From: an uncultured bacterium
GTDB taxonomy: Bacteria; Verrucomicrobiota; Kiritimatiellia; RFP12; UBA1067
NCBI GenBank assembly: GCA_902769585.1
Contig: CACXPT010000058.1
Span: forward strand, 1 to 33,432
DNA length: 33,432 nucleotides
Direction: 5' to 3'
The notes beneath the pieces were generated by a model. That model saw only the letters and a list, made by a program, of their open reading frames with translations. It ran no database searches and was not told the DNA's origin. How positions within the stretch are numbered: the stretch's first letter is position 1; each line of letters begins with the position of its first letter. The position numbers were made by a program, and so were the translations under genes. Positions 270 to 19,435 of the stretch are shown here, piece by piece.

Positions 270-503
270 ATGCTTGACAAGAAGCAAATGGCGGCAGCGC
301 AAGCGCTGCCTTCTGGACACTGGGGCGGGCCACTGGCGGCAGCGCAAGCGCTGCCTTCTGGACACTGGGGCGGGCCACTGGCGGCAGCGCAAGCGCTGCC
401 TTCTGGACACTGGGGCGGGCCGCTTGCGGCAGCGCAAGCGCTGGCAGAAGGATGCAGGCGCATATGCGATTTGCAGGGCCAATGTGAGGGAAATGAGAGG
501 TGA
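270..503 (+). CDS. Doubtful small ORF made of translated hairpin repeats
   Basis: This 77-residue frame starts one base after the preceding stop and has an AGGA-like Shine-Dalgarno stretch upstream. Residues 7-58 are three perfect copies and one partial copy of a 15-residue unit containing AAAQALPSGHWGGP. The same peptide in the same frame forms the C-terminal tail of the transposase at 507-1754, so the frame is open because the repeat is open. It may be no more than a repeat array read as an ORF. Translational coupling to the upstream gene is possible but unproven. Confidence 0.25.
   Translation: MLDKKQMAAAQALPSGHWGGPLAAAQALPSGHWGGPLAAAQALPSGHWGGPLAAAQALAEGCRRICDLQGQCEGNER
291..449 (+). repeat. 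45-bp tandem repeat array with GGCAGCGC hairpin, upstream of RAYT
   Basis: Three identical 45-bp units start at 291, 336 and 381; a fourth, degenerate copy starts at 426. Each full unit carries the perfect hairpin GGCAGCGCAAGCGCTGCC (8-bp stem, AA loop; first copy 293-310) followed by TTCTGGACA. The unit length is a multiple of three and keeps the frame open. The same hairpin recurs at 1412-1429 in the 3' end of the adjacent transposase gene, so the array flanks that gene on both sides. Confidence 0.9.
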
Positions 504-506
504 AGG

Positions 507-1754
507 ATGGTGATGGGAAAGAAGGAGATTCGCCGGTATCGGCGGTTTTACGGGTATGACTACTCGCGGGGTGCGGCGCTTTTCATAACCATCGTCACCA
601 ACCCACGCCGGCGGCTTTTCGGGCAGATCGTTGGTGCGAAGCTCCAGAAGACACCACTGGGGATTGCCGTGGAACGGCGGTTCGCCGATATGGCGCAGAT
701 GCCAGGCATCCGGCTTTTCAACTTCGTCGTGATGCCGGACCACGTTCACCTCCAGCTTCATCTTCGCGCAGGACTGCCGAACCCGCTGGTGACACTAGGG
801 CGGGCGATCGGCGCGTTCAAGAGCCTCTGCGCGAAAGACTTTCACGAGCTCACGGGCGAGTCTGGGGCGCTTTGGCAACAGGGCTACCACGATTGGATTT
901 GCATGTCGGAGGAGATGCTCGCCGCAGTCAACCGCTACATCGACTACAATCCGCTGAAGTTCGAGCTGCGCTACAACCAGCCGGAATTTCTCGCCATACA
1001 CGAGCCGCTCGCTGCCTGGCGGCTTTCAACAGAGGAATTTTGGCGCGGCATCGGGGCCGTAGAGCTGCTTGATGGCGGCACGCCGTTCATCGCGCTTCGC
1101 ATCAGCCGCAAGCTATCGGCGCGGCAAGTTGCCGAGGCCGTTGCGCGCATTCGCCGCCGGGTGGGCGATTATGTTTTTGTGGGCGGATGGATCAGCCCTG
1201 GCGAGAAGGCCGTGCGCGATATGCTGCTCGCCGAGCCGAAGGGGGGCATCGTGCAGATATTGCCATCAGCGATGCCGCATGATTATAAAGTGGGCAGCAT
1301 GTGGCTGGAAGCAATTCGCGATCGCCGCGCGGCGATCATCGCGCGTGGCAACAGCGAGATCGAATTTTCGCGCGCGGCATGCCTGGAGGTGAATGGGGCG
1401 GCGGCGGGATTGGCAGCGCAAGCGCTGCCATCTGGACAGTGGCAAGGTGGAGCATCTGCGCAAGCGCTGCCTTCTGGACAGTGGCAAGGTGGAGCATCTG
1501 CGCAAGCGCTGCCATCTGGACAGTGGCAGGGGGGCGCATCTGCGCAAGTGCTGCCATCGAGGGAGTGGCATGGGGGAGGATCTGCGCAAGGGCTGCCATC
1601 GGAGCAGGGGCAGGCGCGGAATCTGGCAACGCAAGCGCTGCCTTCTGGACAGAGGCAAGATGGAGCATCTGCGCAAGCGCTGCCACCGGGGCAGGGGCTG
1701 CCTTGCGGGAAGGCGGTTTACTGGCTGCCGGAAGGGCCGAAGGTCATTTCTTGA
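507..1754 (+). CDS. REP-associated tyrosine transposase (IS200-like Y1 HUH family, RAYT) with C-terminal extension
   Basis: A 415-residue protein. Residues about 10-155 match the Y1_Tnp/TnpA_REP fold: the metal-binding HUH motif is MPDHVHL (H79, H81) and the likely nucleophile is Y144 in NRYIDYNP, as in RAYT enzymes that nick single-stranded hairpin DNA. Residues about 180-297 form an extra domain with GGWISPGEKAV and RGNSEIEFSRA motifs, possibly a Rossmann-like DprA/SLOG-type fold (inference). Residues about 303-405 are a translated 42-bp repeat array (AQALPSGQWQGGAS units), so the original stop was probably lost to repeat expansion. ATG 507 has GAGAGG upstream; ATG 513 is an alternative. 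Repeats on both sides support an active or recently active REP/RAYT locus. Confidence 0.85.
   Translation: MVMGKKEIRRYRRFYGYDYSRGAALFITIVTNPRRRLFGQIVGAKLQKTPLGIAVERRFADMAQMPGIRLFNFVVMPDHVHLQLHLRAGLPNPLVTLGRAIGAFKSLCAKDFHELTGESGALWQQGYHDWICMSEEMLAAVNRYIDYNPLKFELRYNQPEFLAIHEPLAAWRLSTEEFWRGIGAVELLDGGTPFIALRISRKLSARQVAEAVARIRRRVGDYVFVGGWISPGEKAVRDMLLAEPKGGIVQILPSAMPHDYKVGSMWLEAIRDRRAAIIARGNSEIEFSRAACLEVNGAAAGLAAQALPSGQWQGGASAQALPSGQWQGGASAQALPSGQWQGGASAQVLPSREWHGGGSAQGLPSEQGQARNLATQALPSGQRQDGASAQALPPGQGLPCGKAVYWLPEGPKVIS
1412..1712 (+). repeat. 42-bp tandem repeat array inside the 3' end of the transposase gene
   Basis: About seven units begin at 1416, 1458, 1500, 1542, 1584, 1629 (45-bp step) and 1671. 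The first is preceded by the full hairpin GGCAGCGCAAGCGCTGCC (1412-1429). In later units the left arm has changed to ATCTGCGC, so only the inner GCGCAAGCGC pairing remains. All steps are multiples of three and the array is translated as the transposase tail. The core GCGCAAGCGCTGCC plus CTGGACA matches the 5' array at 291-449. Confidence 0.9.
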
Positions 1755-1756
1755 AA

Positions 1757-1772
1757 ACACCGCTTGCGGTGT
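1757..1772 (+). repeat. Small hairpin just after the transposase stop
   Basis: ACACCGCTTGCGGTGT is a perfect 6-bp stem with a CTTG loop, starting three bases after the stop codon and followed by CCTGCG, which resembles the CCTCCCG/CCTACCG tails of the other hairpins. The nearest T-run (1787-1791) is about 15 bases downstream, so a standard intrinsic terminator is unlikely. A REP-like end of the transposase unit fits better but is unproven. Confidence 0.4.
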
Positions 1773-1888: not shown

Positions 1889-2260
1889 GCCCGCCGCTTG
1901 AAAACGCTCAGAAGGAATGCTCGAAAATGGACAAACACGGCAATCTGATCTTGACCGGCTGGGGCTACGCGGAATACGTGGCCGCAGCGGCGGTGGCGCT
2001 CAAGGCGCTGGGCGGCAACGCGGAGGTTCTTGGCGTGAGCCGGAGGCGTCTCCCCGAGCTGCTTGGGGAACTCGCCGCCGAGCGCGGCGCGCCGCGCTGG
2101 AAGCGCATCTATATTCTTGGCGTGTCGCTGAGCGGCGACCCTGAGGCGCTTGCCAATGCTCTCGCGAAACTGAAGGCAAAGGGCGTGGAGGTGGAATGGA
2201 TCAGTGCGCTAGAGATGCCGGAGGAGATCGCTGACCAGCTGGAGGGTGTGTTGGAAGAGC

Positions 2261-2287
2261 GGGCACGCGGGACGCGTGCCCCTACCG
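2261..2287 (+). repeat. In-frame hairpin element (GGGCACGCG stem) with CCTACCGG tail
   Basis: GGGCACGCG GGA CGCGTGCCC (2261-2281) is a perfect 9-bp stem with a 3-nt loop, followed by CTACCGG. It codes for ARGTRAPTG inside the N-terminal region of the sigma-54 activator. It shares the stem-plus-tail design of the hairpins in murCB and the beta-galactosidase. Confidence 0.75.
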
Positions 2288-2361
2288 GTACACTGCTCGA
2301 GGAGGTGGGCAAGGCTTTTGGCGTGGATGTAAAAGAGTTCATGCCGTTCGTGGCATCGGCA

Positions 2362-2380
2362 GGGGCACGCGGGACGCGTG
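2362..2380 (+). repeat. Second, degenerate in-frame hairpin in the sigma-54 activator
   Basis: GGGGCACGCGGGACGCGTG repeats the 2261 element but diverges after the right arm (CACGCG/CGCGTG, 6-bp stem, GGA loop) and lacks the tail. It codes for ARGTRDRAS, about 33 residues after the first copy. Confidence 0.65.
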
Positions 2381-3468
2381 ATCGGGCCTCAGACTTCCGT
2401 GCCTACCTCACACTGATCGACACGGCCCAGTTCTGTTATCGCAATTACCAGGACGAGTCGCTATACGCGACGACGGTACGCTATCTGGCGAACGGGGTGA
2501 AGCCTTGCGCGTGGGAGCCGCATGTCAAGGCTGCGGTCGCGCACTACGACCGCTACGGCGGGCGAGAGCTGCTGGGCAAAAGCCAGGTGATAGCGACGCT
2601 GCAGGATCGCATCAATCGCGTTGCGGCGCACGAGCACGCGCGAGTCCTCATCCTCGGCGAGAGCGGCACGGGCAAGGAGACCGTCGCGCAGCAGATCCAC
2701 ACGAAGAGCCCGCGCCGGAAAATGCCGTTCGTCGCGTTCAACTGCAGGACCTGCTGGAGGACCGCTTTTTCGGGCACGAGCGCGGCGCGTTCACGAATGC
2801 AGTGGAGCGCACTGACGGTCTGTTCCTCCAGGCGGACGGCGGGACGCTCTTCCTCGACGAGATCGGCGAGATGTCGCTGGAGGTGCAGGCGCTCCTGCTG
2901 CGCGTTCTGGAGGGAGGCCGTTTCATGCGCCTTGGCGGCAGGGAGGAGCTGACGTGCGACGTGCGGCTCATCACGGCGACGAACCGCGACCTGCCGCGCC
3001 TCGTGTGCGAGGGGAAGTTCCGCGAAGACCTCTATCAGCGGCTGAACGTGGTGCAGCTCAGGACGCCGTCCCTGCGCGAGCACAAGGACGACATCCCGGT
3101 CATCGCCAACGCCTGGTGGCGCAAGTTCCACGGCAATCATGTGCTTCGGGAAGATCAGATCTCCGCGCTCATTGACTACGACTATCCCGGCAACGTGCGC
3201 GAGCTGATCAACATCCTCGACCGGGCGACGGCGCTGGAGGAGTACGATTTCGCCGCGCTCATGCGCGAACACAAGGAGATGAACGCGGGGCTGTCGGGCG
3301 GGCTGGAGTTGAGGTCGGGCCGCGTCCCCGACAACCTCGAGGCGGCCACGCGGCTCCATGTCCGCCGCGTGTACGAGAAGTACGGGCAGAACCTGACGCG
3401 CGCCGCCGAGGCGCTGGACGTGAGCCGCAACACGGTGAGGAAGTACCTCTAGGTACGAGGTGCAAGCA

Positions 3469-15722: not shown

Positions 15723-16081
15723 TGGTGGGCCAAGAGAACTACGAAAAGGCGTTTGAGCGGCTGAGAAAATCTAGGTTCCGCAGCCGGTTCCATCTTTCGG
15801 ATTCGGATCGGAGCTATATCGCAGAAAAGGGGATGGAGACGATTCGAAGGCATTGCGAGGACTTTGTCCGAACGCGCCTCGCTCCTGCCAACCCGCCCAA
15901 TGACGGCAGGCAGACGCCCATGCGCGGGCATCCCGTCTTCGTCGCGCAGCACGCTTGCGCGTGCTGCTGCCGCGGTTGTCTTGCAAAGTGGTGGAAGGTG
16001 CCGCGCGGCGTGGAGATTCCTGCAGCTCGCCAGCAGGGGATAGTCGATTTCTTGATGGCGTGGATAGCGTTAGACCTCTAG
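15722..16081 (+). CDS. DUF4186 family protein
   Basis: A 119-residue protein matching the DUF4186 family by recalled consensus: FERLRKSRFRSRFHLS near the N-terminus, KGMETIRRHCEDFVRTRLAPA, QTPMRGHPVFVAQHACACCCRGCLAKWW and a C-terminal FLMAWI. The cluster of cysteines with H suggests metal binding. Function is unknown. The ATG overlaps the stop of the symporter gene. The 3' end overlaps the convergent murCB gene by 12 bp (16070-16081). Confidence 0.85.
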   Translation: MVGQENYEKAFERLRKSRFRSRFHLSDSDRSYIAEKGMETIRRHCEDFVRTRLAPANPPNDGRQTPMRGHPVFVAQHACACCCRGCLAKWWKVPRGVEIPAARQQGIVDFLMAWIALDL

Positions 16082-18283
16082 GCCGCGGATTTCCGGCTCG
16101 AGGCGGATGCCTGAACGGAAAAAGACCGCGCGGGCCATGAGACGCGCAAGGGCGAGAATGTCCGACGACGTGCAGCCCTCGCCCGCAACGATCACGTTGG
16201 CGTGCTCGCTCCATACGTATGCGCCGCCTACGCGCATGGACTTTGCGCCGGCCTCGTCCAGCAATCGGCCTGCCGGCATGTCTGGCGAAGGGTTCTTGAA
16301 GACGCTGCCGCAGGTGCGCGGCGGAAAATTTTTCCGCCGCGCGAGGTAGTCCTTGGCGGTCTTAAGGTCTTTAACGTCGTTAAGGTCGTTACGGTCGTTA
16401 AGTTTGTTAAGGTCTGCTAGCCACACCTCGGTGATTAGCCCATCAATGGCCGAGGTCCGGTAGCCAAAGCCGCAAGCGTCATGCGGAATTGTCTTGCCGT
16501 CTACGACCACGTGGTCGACATAGTTGCCGAAGGAGTCGCCGAACGCGCCGGCGTTCATCTTTGTCCAGCCACCGATCGTGCCCGGGATTCCTGCCATGAA
16601 AGCGAGTTCCGGGTGATCATCGAGGAGAGATGCTCCGGGAACGCCTGCCTGGATCCCCTTGGAAAGCGGATGGTTCTGTTCGGACGTGGGAGCGCGCACG
16701 ATTTCGATGTCGGTGACGCAGTCGCTGAACCATGTGTTCGACCCCATGCCGACGATCGTCCGCTCGCCGCCACCGACCGTTGCGCCGCCAGTGCGGAAGA
16801 AGGAGAGAGTTGAGAGTTGATATGTAGGGAGGTGTTGAGGTGTTGAGATGTTGAGACGTTGAGAGTTGCTGGAGAGGTCTTGTTTGATTTGCGGGACGAG
16901 GTTGATGATGTCGCCGGCACCAGCAAGGAGGATAAGGTCTCCGGGGGCGGCGGAGAGGAGGACGTGTCGCCAGGCCTCTTCCGCGCTGCGTGCAAGGATT
17001 GGCGGTCGCGCGGGAGCGCGACCCTCCCGGGATGCAATCGGTCGCGCGGGAGCGCGACCCTCCCGGGATGCAATCGGTCGCAACAAGTTGCGACCCTCCC
17101 GGAAGGACTTGTAGAGGTCGGCGATGTCGCCGCCGGGGATGGGTTCTTCGAAGGCGGGATAGACTGGTATCAGCACCACCTCGTCCGCCTCGGCGAAGGC
17201 AGGTGGAAACTCGTCGAGCAAGGCCTTCGTGCGGCTGTAGCGGTGCGGCTGGAAGAGGACGCGGAGCCGCTTGGGCTTGAGCTCCGCCGCCATGCCTACG
17301 GCGCACTTCAGCTCGGCGGGATGGTGCGCGTAGTCGGTGTAGACCGTGATTGACGGTTGAGATGTTGAGGCGTTGAGGAGTTGAGATGTTGAGGAGTTGA
17401 GGAGTTGAGATGTTGAGGAGTTGAGGAGTTGAGATGTTGAGATGTTGAGGAGTTGAGAAGTTGAGGGGCGTGGGGGCCAGATGCGTTCGAAGCGGCGGTC
17501 TGGGAGTTCAGAGAGGGCGGTGGGCAGGGATGCGGCTATTGCCTCGCGGGAATGGCCGCGCCTCAGTGCCACCTCGATGGCGGCGCGTGCGTTCATCACG
17601 TTGTGCCGGCCGATGACGAGGTGTTCCAGCTCTGGCCAGTCGGATGGGTCGAGTTCCCATGCGCGGATCACGTCCATCGCCGCCGTTGCCGCAGTGTCGT
17701 AACAGGCATGGTAGTCCTCAACGGACTTGAAATGCTCCGGGTGGTCGAAATCTATGGACGTGATGACGAGAGTATGCGCACGGTAGAGCGCCAAGGTGCC
17801 GTCTGATTCGTCCGCCTCCACGACGAGAGGGCCTGTCCCCTCGCTGGCGACTGGCATGTCTCCGGTCTCGCCGCCGATGCACCATGAAGGGTCAGTCCCC
17901 AGGGCCTGGAGCAGGCGGGCTGTGAATGTGGCTGTAGTCGTCTTGCCGTGAGTGCCGCAGACCGCGATGCCGTCAGAGGCGTTCACGAGCTCGGCCAGGA
18001 CCTCTCCTCGGTAGCGGATGCGGATCTGTGGGGACAGACCCTTCGCGGCGGAGAGTTCGGGGTCGGACTGCGGGACGGCGGGCGTGACTACGAGCTCGTC
18101 GATGTCGGCAAGGTGGGAAGGGGAATGTCCGAGAGCGACGGGTATGCCGTTCGCCTCCAGCCAGCGCGTGCGGGGCGAGGCGTACTTGTCGCAGCCCGAC
18201 ACGTCGAAGCCGCGGCGCTTCAAAAGAAAAGCGACGCCGGCCATGCCGACGCCGCCTATTCCCTGGAAGTGAATCCTTTTCAC
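16070..18283 (-). CDS. murC/murB: MurC-MurB fusion: UDP-N-acetylmuramate-alanine ligase and UDP-N-acetylenolpyruvoylglucosamine reductase
   Basis: A 737-residue cytoplasmic fusion for two consecutive peptidoglycan precursor steps (MurB then MurC). MurC spans about 1-465: GIGGVGM (8-14), ATP loop GTHGKTTT (110-117), EADESDG, GRHNVMNA and DYAHHPAE (317-324). MurB spans about 496-737: GMGSN, GIPGTIGG and NAGAFG, YRTSAI, and GSVFKNP with catalytic S660; its N-terminal FAD region looks shortened. Four in-frame repeat insertions interrupt it: 273-311 (STSQ/LLN), 396-428 (hairpins, REGRAPARP), 470-493 (the inter-domain linker) and 625-641 (LND). The start is GTG 18283, overlapping the VOC stop as GTGA; a later ATG would remove the nucleotide motif. 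Last gene of the yebC-VOC-murCB operon. Confidence 0.9.
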   Translation of the reverse strand: MKRIHFQGIGGVGMAGVAFLLKRRGFDVSGCDKYASPRTRWLEANGIPVALGHSPSHLADIDELVVTPAVPQSDPELSAAKGLSPQIRIRYRGEVLAELVNASDGIAVCGTHGKTTTATFTARLLQALGTDPSWCIGGETGDMPVASEGTGPLVVEADESDGTLALYRAHTLVITSIDFDHPEHFKSVEDYHACYDTAATAAMDVIRAWELDPSDWPELEHLVIGRHNVMNARAAIEVALRRGHSREAIAASLPTALSELPDRRFERIWPPRPSTSQLLNISTSQLLNSSTSQLLNSSTSQLLNASTSQPSITVYTDYAHHPAELKCAVGMAAELKPKRLRVLFQPHRYSRTKALLDEFPPAFAEADEVVLIPVYPAFEEPIPGGDIADLYKSFREGRNLLRPIASREGRAPARPIASREGRAPARPPILARSAEEAWRHVLLSAAPGDLILLAGAGDIINLVPQIKQDLSSNSQRLNISTPQHLPTYQLSTLSFFRTGGATVGGGERTIVGMGSNTWFSDCVTDIEIVRAPTSEQNHPLSKGIQAGVPGASLLDDHPELAFMAGIPGTIGGWTKMNAGAFGDSFGNYVDHVVVDGKTIPHDACGFGYRTSAIDGLITEVWLADLNKLNDRNDLNDVKDLKTAKDYLARRKNFPPRTCGSVFKNPSPDMPAGRLLDEAGAKSMRVGGAYVWSEHANVIVAGEGCTSSDILALARLMARAVFFRSGIRLEPEIRGLEV
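16316..16342 (-). repeat. Perfect 27-nt palindrome inside the MurB domain
   Basis: Arms of 13 nt (GCGCGGCGGAAAA and complement) flank a single central base. It encodes ARRKNFPPR just before the GSVFKNP active-site motif. It could be chance in a GC-rich gene, but arms of this length are uncommon. Confidence 0.45.
16360..16414 (-). repeat. LND-type microsatellite inserted in MurB
   Basis: On the coding strand this is a run of CTTAACGAC-like units translated as LNKLNDRNDLNDVKDLK. It matches the family in the CPBP protease gene at 19957-20098. The reverse strand would contain TAA stops, which explains why both copies have the same orientation relative to the gene. Confidence 0.8.
16803..16868 (-). 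repeat. STSQ-type microsatellite at the MurC-MurB junction
   Basis: Imperfect CTCAAC/TCTCAA units on the coding strand give [21 protein letters not shown]. The repeat forms most of the linker between the two enzyme domains, so repeat insertion may have created or lengthened the fusion joint. Confidence 0.7.
17004..17102 (-). repeat. Three tandem hairpin elements (36-bp period) inside murC
   Basis: Hairpins at 17004-17023 and 17040-17059 (GGTCGCGC stem, GGGA loop) and 17076-17095 (GGTCGCAAC stem, AA loop) are each followed by CTCCCGG. The third stem differs from the first two on both arms and still pairs perfectly. The 36-bp step keeps the frame and gives two complete REGRAPARP units. On the gene's strand each element begins with CCGGGAGG followed by the hairpin. 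Confidence 0.88.
17355..17466 (-). repeat. STSQ/LLN-type microsatellite inserted in MurC
   Basis: About 110 bp of TTGAGGAG/TTGAGATG units (plus strand), translated on the minus strand as residues 273-311, alternating STSQLLN and SS. Family members have only a few residues between the RRFE motif and the DYAHHP motif, so this is a clear insertion in a surface loop beside the active site. Confidence 0.88.
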
Positions 18284-18642
18284 AGCAAGATCGGATTCCC
18301 GCGCTTGACGAACTGTATGGCCATGCCAAACGGATCGCGCAGCATCACCATGTCGAAGCCTTCCTTGTGGACGGTCTCGAGGAGGGTGGCGCCGGCGGCC
18401 ACGAGGCGCTTTGCATCTGCGTCGACATCGTCCGAAAGGAACGCGATGTGCATCGCGAGAGGCGACGTGTTCGCCCAGTCTGGAACCGGGGCTGCAGGGT
18501 TGTTGTAGAACTCGATTGCCATCTGGCCGGTGGAGTCCACGATGAACGCAGGGTGAACCTGCTTGAATCCCAGGTTCGCGCACCACCAGTCCATGAGCTT
18601 CTGGGGCTCGGCGACGTTGTAGCCGATGTGTTCGAGCTTCAT
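18280..18642 (-). CDS. VOC-family (glyoxalase/bleomycin-resistance fold) protein
   Basis: A 120-residue protein with two beta-alpha-beta-beta-beta modules of the vicinal-oxygen-chelate fold: MKLEHIGYNVAEPQKLMDWW at the start and MHIAFLSDDVDADAKRLVAAGA in the second half, ending in MVMLRDPFGMAIQFVKR. Likely metal ligands are H5, E44 in MAIEFYNN, H65 in MHIAF and a late residue, but the reaction is unknown. It lies five bases after yebC, and its TGA overlaps the murCB GTG start, so it belongs to that operon. Confidence 0.8.
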   Translation of the reverse strand: MKLEHIGYNVAEPQKLMDWWCANLGFKQVHPAFIVDSTGQMAIEFYNNPAAPVPDWANTSPLAMHIAFLSDDVDADAKRLVAAGATLLETVHKEGFDMVMLRDPFGMAIQFVKRGNPILL

Positions 18643-18647
18643 GGCAA

Positions 18648-19435
18648 TCAGCCCTCGGCTTCGAGCGCGGCGTCCACGGCGTCCGACGTCTCCATGTTGG
18701 TGTAGACGTCCTGCACGTCCTCGAGGTTCTCGAGCATCTCGACGAACTTGTTGATGGCCTTGGCGACGGCGACGTCGTCCACGGGAGCGGTCATGTTGGG
18801 GATGAGCGCGCGCTCCTCGGAGTTCTCCTCGTCGACCGCGATGCCGGCGCCCTTGATGGCCTCGAGCACGGTGGTGAAGTCGGAGGGCTGGCACTTGACG
18901 GTGAAGCCGCCGTCCTCGGAAAGGACGTCCTCGGCGCCGGCCTCGAGGGCCACTTCCATCACCTTGTCCTCGTCCAGGCCGTCGGCCGCCGGGATCATGA
19001 TCTGGCCCATGCGGTCGAAGAGACGCGCCGCGCTGCCCTGCTTGGCGAGCTCGGTGCCGTTCTTCTTGAACACGTTGCCGACTTCTGCGGCGGCGCGGTT
19101 CTTGTTGTCGGTGAGTACAGTGACGACGATGGCGATGCCGCCCTTGATGCCTTCGTAGGTGGCGTCCACGAGCGCGGCGGACTCCAGTTCGCCCGTGCCT
19201 TTCTTGATGGCGCGCTCGATGTTGTCGTTAGGCATCTGCGCGGCCTTCGCCTTGGCGATGAGCGTGCGCAGGGTAGGATTGGTGTTCGGATCGCCGCCCT
19301 TGGCCTTCACGACGATGGTGATTTCCTTGCCGAGCTTCGAGAAGATCTTGCCCTTCTTCGCGTCGGCCGCGCCTTTCTCGCGTCGGCCGCGCCTTTCGCG
19401 CGCTTGATTGTGGCCCAGTGGCTGTGACCTGACAT
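18648..19435 (-). pseudogene. yebC: YebC/PmpR-family regulator, frameshifted by a 20-bp tandem duplication
   Basis: YebC-family proteins act as transcription regulators or help ribosomes through proline stretches. The expected start is at ATG 19435, after CAAGGAG, and reads MSGHSHWATIKRAKGAADA. A 20-bp unit is then duplicated (19359-19378 and 19379-19398, 19/20 identical), which shifts the frame. The rest (KKGKIFSKLGKEITI to the stop at 18648) is intact in another frame. Removing one copy would restore a normal protein of about 255 residues. As written, translation from the native start leaves frame after about 19 residues. It could be a real mutation, a reversible slippage site or an assembly error. 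Confidence 0.85.
19359..19398 (-). repeat. 20-bp tandem duplication in yebC
   Basis: Two adjacent copies of CGCGTCGGCCGCGCCTTTCT (plus strand), the second differing only in its last base. Because 20 is not a multiple of three, the duplication causes the yebC frameshift. Confidence 0.92.

Follow-up and report, generated by a model that had tools for sequence, protein, structure and literature searches.

We describe here a gene in the window, i.e., the whole stretch of 33,432 nucleotides analyzed (contig CACXPT010000058.1, our contig C58, of assembly GCA_902769585.1 from an uncultured rumen bacterium of the Kiritimatiellia), which encodes a nuclease resembling the REP-associated tyrosine transposases (RAYTs; REP, repetitive extragenic palindrome), is accompanied by copies of one hairpin on both sides, and carries further copies in its own reading frame. 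The explanation that we consider probable, albeit with clear reservations, is that a conserved, single-copy, RAYT-like nuclease acting on single-stranded DNA recognizes the hairpins in cis and that the translated copies form a disordered loop which the protein tolerates; in themselves, these units are most likely functionless. The anatomy of the locus is well supported, and we take it as established together with its conservation, the compensatory changes in the hairpin stem, the absence of the hairpin elsewhere and the purifying selection on the enzyme, while the recognition in cis and the harmlessness of the loop are what we infer.

The open reading frame (ORF) of this gene (Table 1) matches Pfam Y1_Tnp at 2.5e-6, and an IS200-like, REP-associated HUH enzyme, as proposed in a preliminary description of this DNA, was thus borne out at the level of a RAYT-like protein; we use this label because the score against NCBIfam REP_Tyr_transpos (NF047646), 57.3 bits, is under the curated cut-off of 80 bits. 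Both an HUH motif and a candidate catalytic tyrosine are present in the Y1/HUH domain, as is expected of a RAYT, and the two motifs were almost invariant in an alignment of 27 relatives. The compared loci (numbered with L; C-numbers denote contigs of the own genome) comprised 13 from a search of genome contigs and further ones from genomes of the same family, the nearest named relatives being mostly rumen Kiritimatiellae metagenome-assembled genomes (MAGs), of which some are labeled Verrucomicrobia or Lentisphaerae. The ratio of nonsynonymous to synonymous substitution rates (dN/dS) between orthologous cores of the enzyme was 0.07–0.27, and the protein is therefore considered to be maintained by purifying selection. 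Each of the compared genomes has one copy of this clade, and when 388 genomes from the phylum were sampled, all relatives of the gene at E below 1e-40 belonged to the same order; a plasmid search returned remote Y1 proteins only.

An AlphaFold2 model, which was built on a 27-row alignment and compared against solved structures, contains two confident domains: a Y1 domain (residues 15–157) and a C-terminal domain (residues 163–310 plus 402–413). The former resembles E. coli RAYT (4er8, Z 13.3) and TnpA of IS608 and ISDra2, and the latter resembles ShosA (Z 13.3, 148 aligned residues, 3.1 Å) and DprA (Z about 11; PDB 4ljl, 3uqz and 8zva for the two proteins), so that the model predicts a DprA-like Rossmann fold for the C-terminal domain. 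Homology with DprA in sequence was considered and dropped, given that hhalign found no match and that a Pfam DNA_processg_A search hit only one of the 27 relatives, at 0.061; because sequence methods miss the resemblance, we claim it at the level of the fold only. Unlike in DprA and ShosA, moreover, the domain is fused to a Y1 nuclease and DprA motifs are not recognizable. The predicted pairing of a Y1 nuclease with a DprA-like, single-stranded-DNA-binding fold would hint at a host role in the processing of single-stranded DNA.

Within this C-terminal domain, the ORF reads straight through an array of about 6.4 units of 42 bp (80% matches) with all unit spacings being multiples of three, and ALPSGQWQGGASAQ is an example of the peptide expected from the translated array. 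The preliminary description had about seven hairpin units filling the last 100 codons as a protein tail; their position and frame stand, but the full hairpin of 7–8 bp is formed by unit 1 alone, and units 2–7 have lost most of the 5′ arm, whereas the 3′ arm and, for the most part, the tag CTGGACA are retained in them. The final ~17 codons past the array are conserved core sequence: close orthologues (68–93% identity) end in GKAVYWLPEGPKxIS, L024 and L026 end in GWAVYWKATGPEVxS, and homologues at 45–48% have few residues only between the helix that ends in ...ACLEVN..AA and the C-terminal end. As the protein resumes after the array in relatives and is uninterrupted at this site in repeat-free homologues, a tail is ruled out, and the alignment places the array as an in-frame insertion in a loop before the last strand of the C-terminal domain. 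This is consistent with the model, in which residues 311–395 have a pLDDT (the model's per-residue confidence) below 50 and the flanking helix and strand about 90. The number of units at the site ranges from roughly 0 to 7 among orthologues (none in L028, one in L023, one to two in L019, L021 and L022, and about seven in the window), a repeat-like insert is also found there in L046 (41%), and the array breaks the frame in one relative alone, L025, where a short duplication shifts the end out of frame.

The same hairpin precedes the gene in 3.4 units of 45 bp (hairpins at 293–310, 338–355 and 383–400), which were previously described as three perfect units and are near-identical, with 98% matches between units. 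Across relatives, a variable stem encloses GCAAGC, and CWGGACA follows at a fixed distance; in its own 5′–3′ sense, the hairpin consists of the tag TGTCCWGA (variants T(G/T)TC(C/T)(A/T)GA), 7 nt, and the tip GCTTGC within the stem, and it is also designated by the motif TGTCCAGA, with TGTCCAGAAGGCAGCGCTTGCGCTGCC as the single-stranded hairpin form. Furthermore, an inverted copy missed by the preliminary description lies right after the stop codon (stem, 1757–1772) and was found in 11 of the 11 close loci examined; its tip lies exactly 7 nt past TGA, and the stop codon hence sits in the tag. In L023 this copy has the exact tag TGTCCTGA, in L028 a compensated stem (AGTACC/GGTACT), and in L025 it comes behind the stop codon that belongs to the original frame. 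The positions of the hairpins are thus shared by relatives of the same clade, which upholds the proposed link to such repeats, and tagged hairpins stand beside the gene as in RAYT loci. Among 17 units, compensatory changes occurred in five of the eight stem pairs, 94.9% of the cells pair, and the covariation was 0.432 against 0.118 after shuffling. Intactness of the hairpin was the criterion by which most of the units had been selected, and the count is inflated by this; no such selection was applied to the 3′ hairpins of L019, L028 and L050.

In the own genome, the hairpin was found nowhere besides the RAYT locus when up to three mismatches were allowed, whereas 29 hits, spread over many contigs, were obtained for the hairpin of another RAYT of this genome. 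When 115 genomes of the family were searched for the pattern, with the reversed pattern as a control, the hairpin turned up at the RAYT locus in those that have this clade; the remaining matches occurred at about the rate of the control and, judged by the matched letters, were without the RAYT-borne arm. The cognate REPs dispersed through the genome that characterize RAYTs are therefore missing, and a dispersed REP family is ruled out. The preliminary description had named a genome-wide count as the test on which its reading would fall if no other copy appeared, and none did.

We accordingly picture a system of one locus, where the RAYT-like enzyme co-evolves with its hairpins without a dispersed REP population and where recognition and hairpin spread can therefore be tested locus by locus. 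The enzyme, composed of a Y1/HUH domain and a C-terminal domain with a DprA-like fold and held by purifying selection, would bind the hairpins as single strands by analogy with RAYT and IS200 enzymes, its cognate hairpin existing only in cis (the upstream array, the in-gene array and the one inverted copy at the stop codon). The hairpins may serve as a site of autoregulation or form the ends of a REPtron-like unit, and slippage or recombination, perhaps aided by nicking, may have raised their copy number locally. Copies in frame would persist because the loop is permissive and the frame of the last strand is kept. Several points weigh against this explanation: the enzyme scores below the REP_Tyr_transpos cut-off, the close repeat-free relative L028 is truncated at its N terminus, the covariation count is inflated as noted above, the hairpin beside the stop codon could be an RNA element, and the genome is a fragmented MAG (4.9 Mb, 79% complete).

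A broader view, which we hold to be possible but doubtful, is that RAYT-like enzymes and palindromes in this order have adapted to life inside reading frames as translation-permissive elements, the present gene being an enzyme that hosts its own target; in this view, host proteins contain hairpins in frame and, in the case of two enzyme genes, also entire RAYT domains. It is unlikely that the locus is instead an IS200/IS605-like mobile element that still moves, with duplicated end hairpins and with the upstream and C-terminal arrays as direct left and right ends. The shared orientation of the upstream and in-gene hairpins is indeed like that of IS200 ends, with the last hairpin being inverted, and gene neighborhoods differ between some genera; however, the several near-identical copies per genome typical of such elements are replaced by a single copy of this clade, neighbors are shared within one genus (g1) and among L024, L025 and L026 (read as hsdS/hsdR), and the strong purifying selection also counts against mobility. 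We give slightly less credence to the hairpins being mainly RNA signals for transcript stability or translational control that the enzyme does not recognize. While a conserved hairpin right behind the stop codon and the necessary co-transcription of the in-gene array with the gene would suit such signals, no T-run follows the 3′ hairpin, and the conserved tag at a fixed distance, the inverted 3′ copy and the strict link to the enzyme family fit a protein target better. Least probable is a selected role of the translated repeats, e.g., as a flexible linker or a DNA-binding loop tuning the DprA-like domain: the in-gene units preserve the frame in most relatives and occupy one site across orthologues of ~70–93% identity, but their copy number (0–7), variable sequence and predicted disorder, the frame-broken version in L025 and similar translated repeats in unrelated genes (e.g., murC-murB in the window) argue otherwise.

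Among known systems, one of the nearest is TnpA_REP subclass 2.4 (RAYT group 4; Quentin et al. 2018), where REPs flank the transposase gene and are inserted in it in frame, generally between HuH and Y, and where they were proposed to form a peripheral extension (PMC6006769). Since such in-frame REPs inside tnpA_REP genes were already reported in 2018 (PMC6006769), calling the present arrangement unusual, as was done at first, is too strong. Our gene differs from subclass 2.4 in its motif (DHVH instead of NH[IFV]H), its tag (TGTCCWGA), the insertion in an added, C-terminal DprA-like domain, the tandem array and the absence of dispersed copies. With the classical RAYT/REPtron (E. coli TnpA_REP, 4er8), it shares the Y1/HUH fold, tagged hairpins beside the gene and the single copy, but not the dispersed REPs, the tag or the domain composition, the DprA-like domain being extra. 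Intragenic REPs and in-frame Rickettsia palindromes are also known (PMC3733652 and references there) and are likewise translated inside proteins; here, in contrast, the repeats lie inside their putative cognate enzyme and are confined to one locus. A literature search for Y1–DprA fusions or Kiritimatiellae palindromes returned nothing on the present system, with incomplete coverage of journals.

Table 1. Features at the RAYT-like locus (positions in the window)
Feature	Position	Strand	Basis
Upstream gene, 3′ end, cut by contig start	2–268	+	Gene of 92% identity precedes the orthologous RAYT of L019
Hybrid ORF: upstream hairpin array preceded by the first ~7 codons of a small gene that L019 has intact	270–503	+	ORF list, comparison
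Upstream array, 3.4 units of 45 bp, hairpins GGCAGCGCAAGCGCTGCC, tag CTGGACA after each	289–443	+	Repeat search
RAYT-like Y1/HUH ORF, 415 aa	507–1754	+	Pfam and NCBIfam matches, relatives
HUH motif DHVH, residues 78–81	738–749	+	Near-invariant columns D78, H79, H81
Candidate catalytic tyrosine Y144 in YIDYNP	936–938	+	Invariant columns Y144, N148
C-terminal domain, residues 163–310, predicted DprA-like Rossmann fold	993–1436	+	Model and structure comparison
Single intact hairpin of in-frame array (TGGCAGCGCAAGCGCTGCCA), unit 1	1411–1430	+	Folding
In-frame array, ~7 units of 42/45 bp (AQALPSGQWQGGAS); insertion predicted to be disordered (residues ~311–395)	1416–1685	+	Repeat search, alignment, model
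Last strands of C-terminal domain, residues 402–413, resuming past array	1710–1745	+	Alignment and model
Inverted hairpin of the same family: tag TTTCTTGA with stop codon, 7 nt, tip GCTTGC; stem 1757–1772	1747–1772	+	Comparison, folding

Neighboring genes recur around the RAYT-like gene in genus g1. In the window, the DNA separating the RAYT from the upstream gene has been shortened by ~1 kb with a new 5′ junction at a hairpin unit, and this loss accounts for the hybrid ORF, which is in the same frame as the RAYT and stops at 501–503; in L019, the remainder of a gene that L050 has intact has likewise been lost, again with a new 5′ junction at a hairpin unit. Adjacent deletions specific to the RAYT were considered, but we do not claim a role of the enzyme in them because the junctions in L050 and L028 look like short-homology deletions. 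An upstream gene runs into the array in L022, and hairpins are translated at the N terminus near the start codon in L024 and L026. In the latter two, the RAYT start codon and the stop codon of the preceding gene overlap (ATGA); this preceding gene is a candidate hsdS, and a putative type I restriction-like gene lies downstream.

Other hairpins are located between HUH and Y in some relatives, and in distant relatives (L043, L044:1414–2871 on the minus strand, L054, L055, L057 and L059) repeat arrays of other kinds are translated, either at the N terminus or in different loops; that of L044, which consists of QRQALSLESRAKP repeats, is the longest.

RAYT domains are also nested in frame in metabolic enzymes of the same genome, which bears on how palindromes persist in coding DNA. 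On contig C98 (L014:619–2856, minus strand), a 746-aa frame of glucuronate isomerase UxaC (4.1e-71, four stretches) contains an in-frame Y1_Tnp domain (372–452) and several translated hairpins. On contig C24 (L016:436–2625, plus strand), a 730-aa frame of an FAD_binding_2 enzyme (1.3e-46) has an in-frame Y1_Tnp (356–412) and PARGAPETCG hairpin repeats, of the family with 29 genome hits, between the N-terminal FAD-binding motif and the remainder; an in-frame inverted pair of this hairpin type occurs in a dihydroxy-acid dehydratase (IlvD; L091:428–2164, plus strand). Elsewhere in the window, a 906-aa MurC-MurB frame (16073–18790, minus strand) of cell-wall synthesis has translated STSQLLN repeats, with REP-like hairpins in frame at 17003–17102. 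Finally, the gene for a sigma-54 activator adjoining the RAYT (1917–3449, plus strand) contains two translated hairpins GGGCACGCGGGACGCGTG (2261 and 2363) and a frame break near 2745, and remnants of that gene follow the RAYT in L021.
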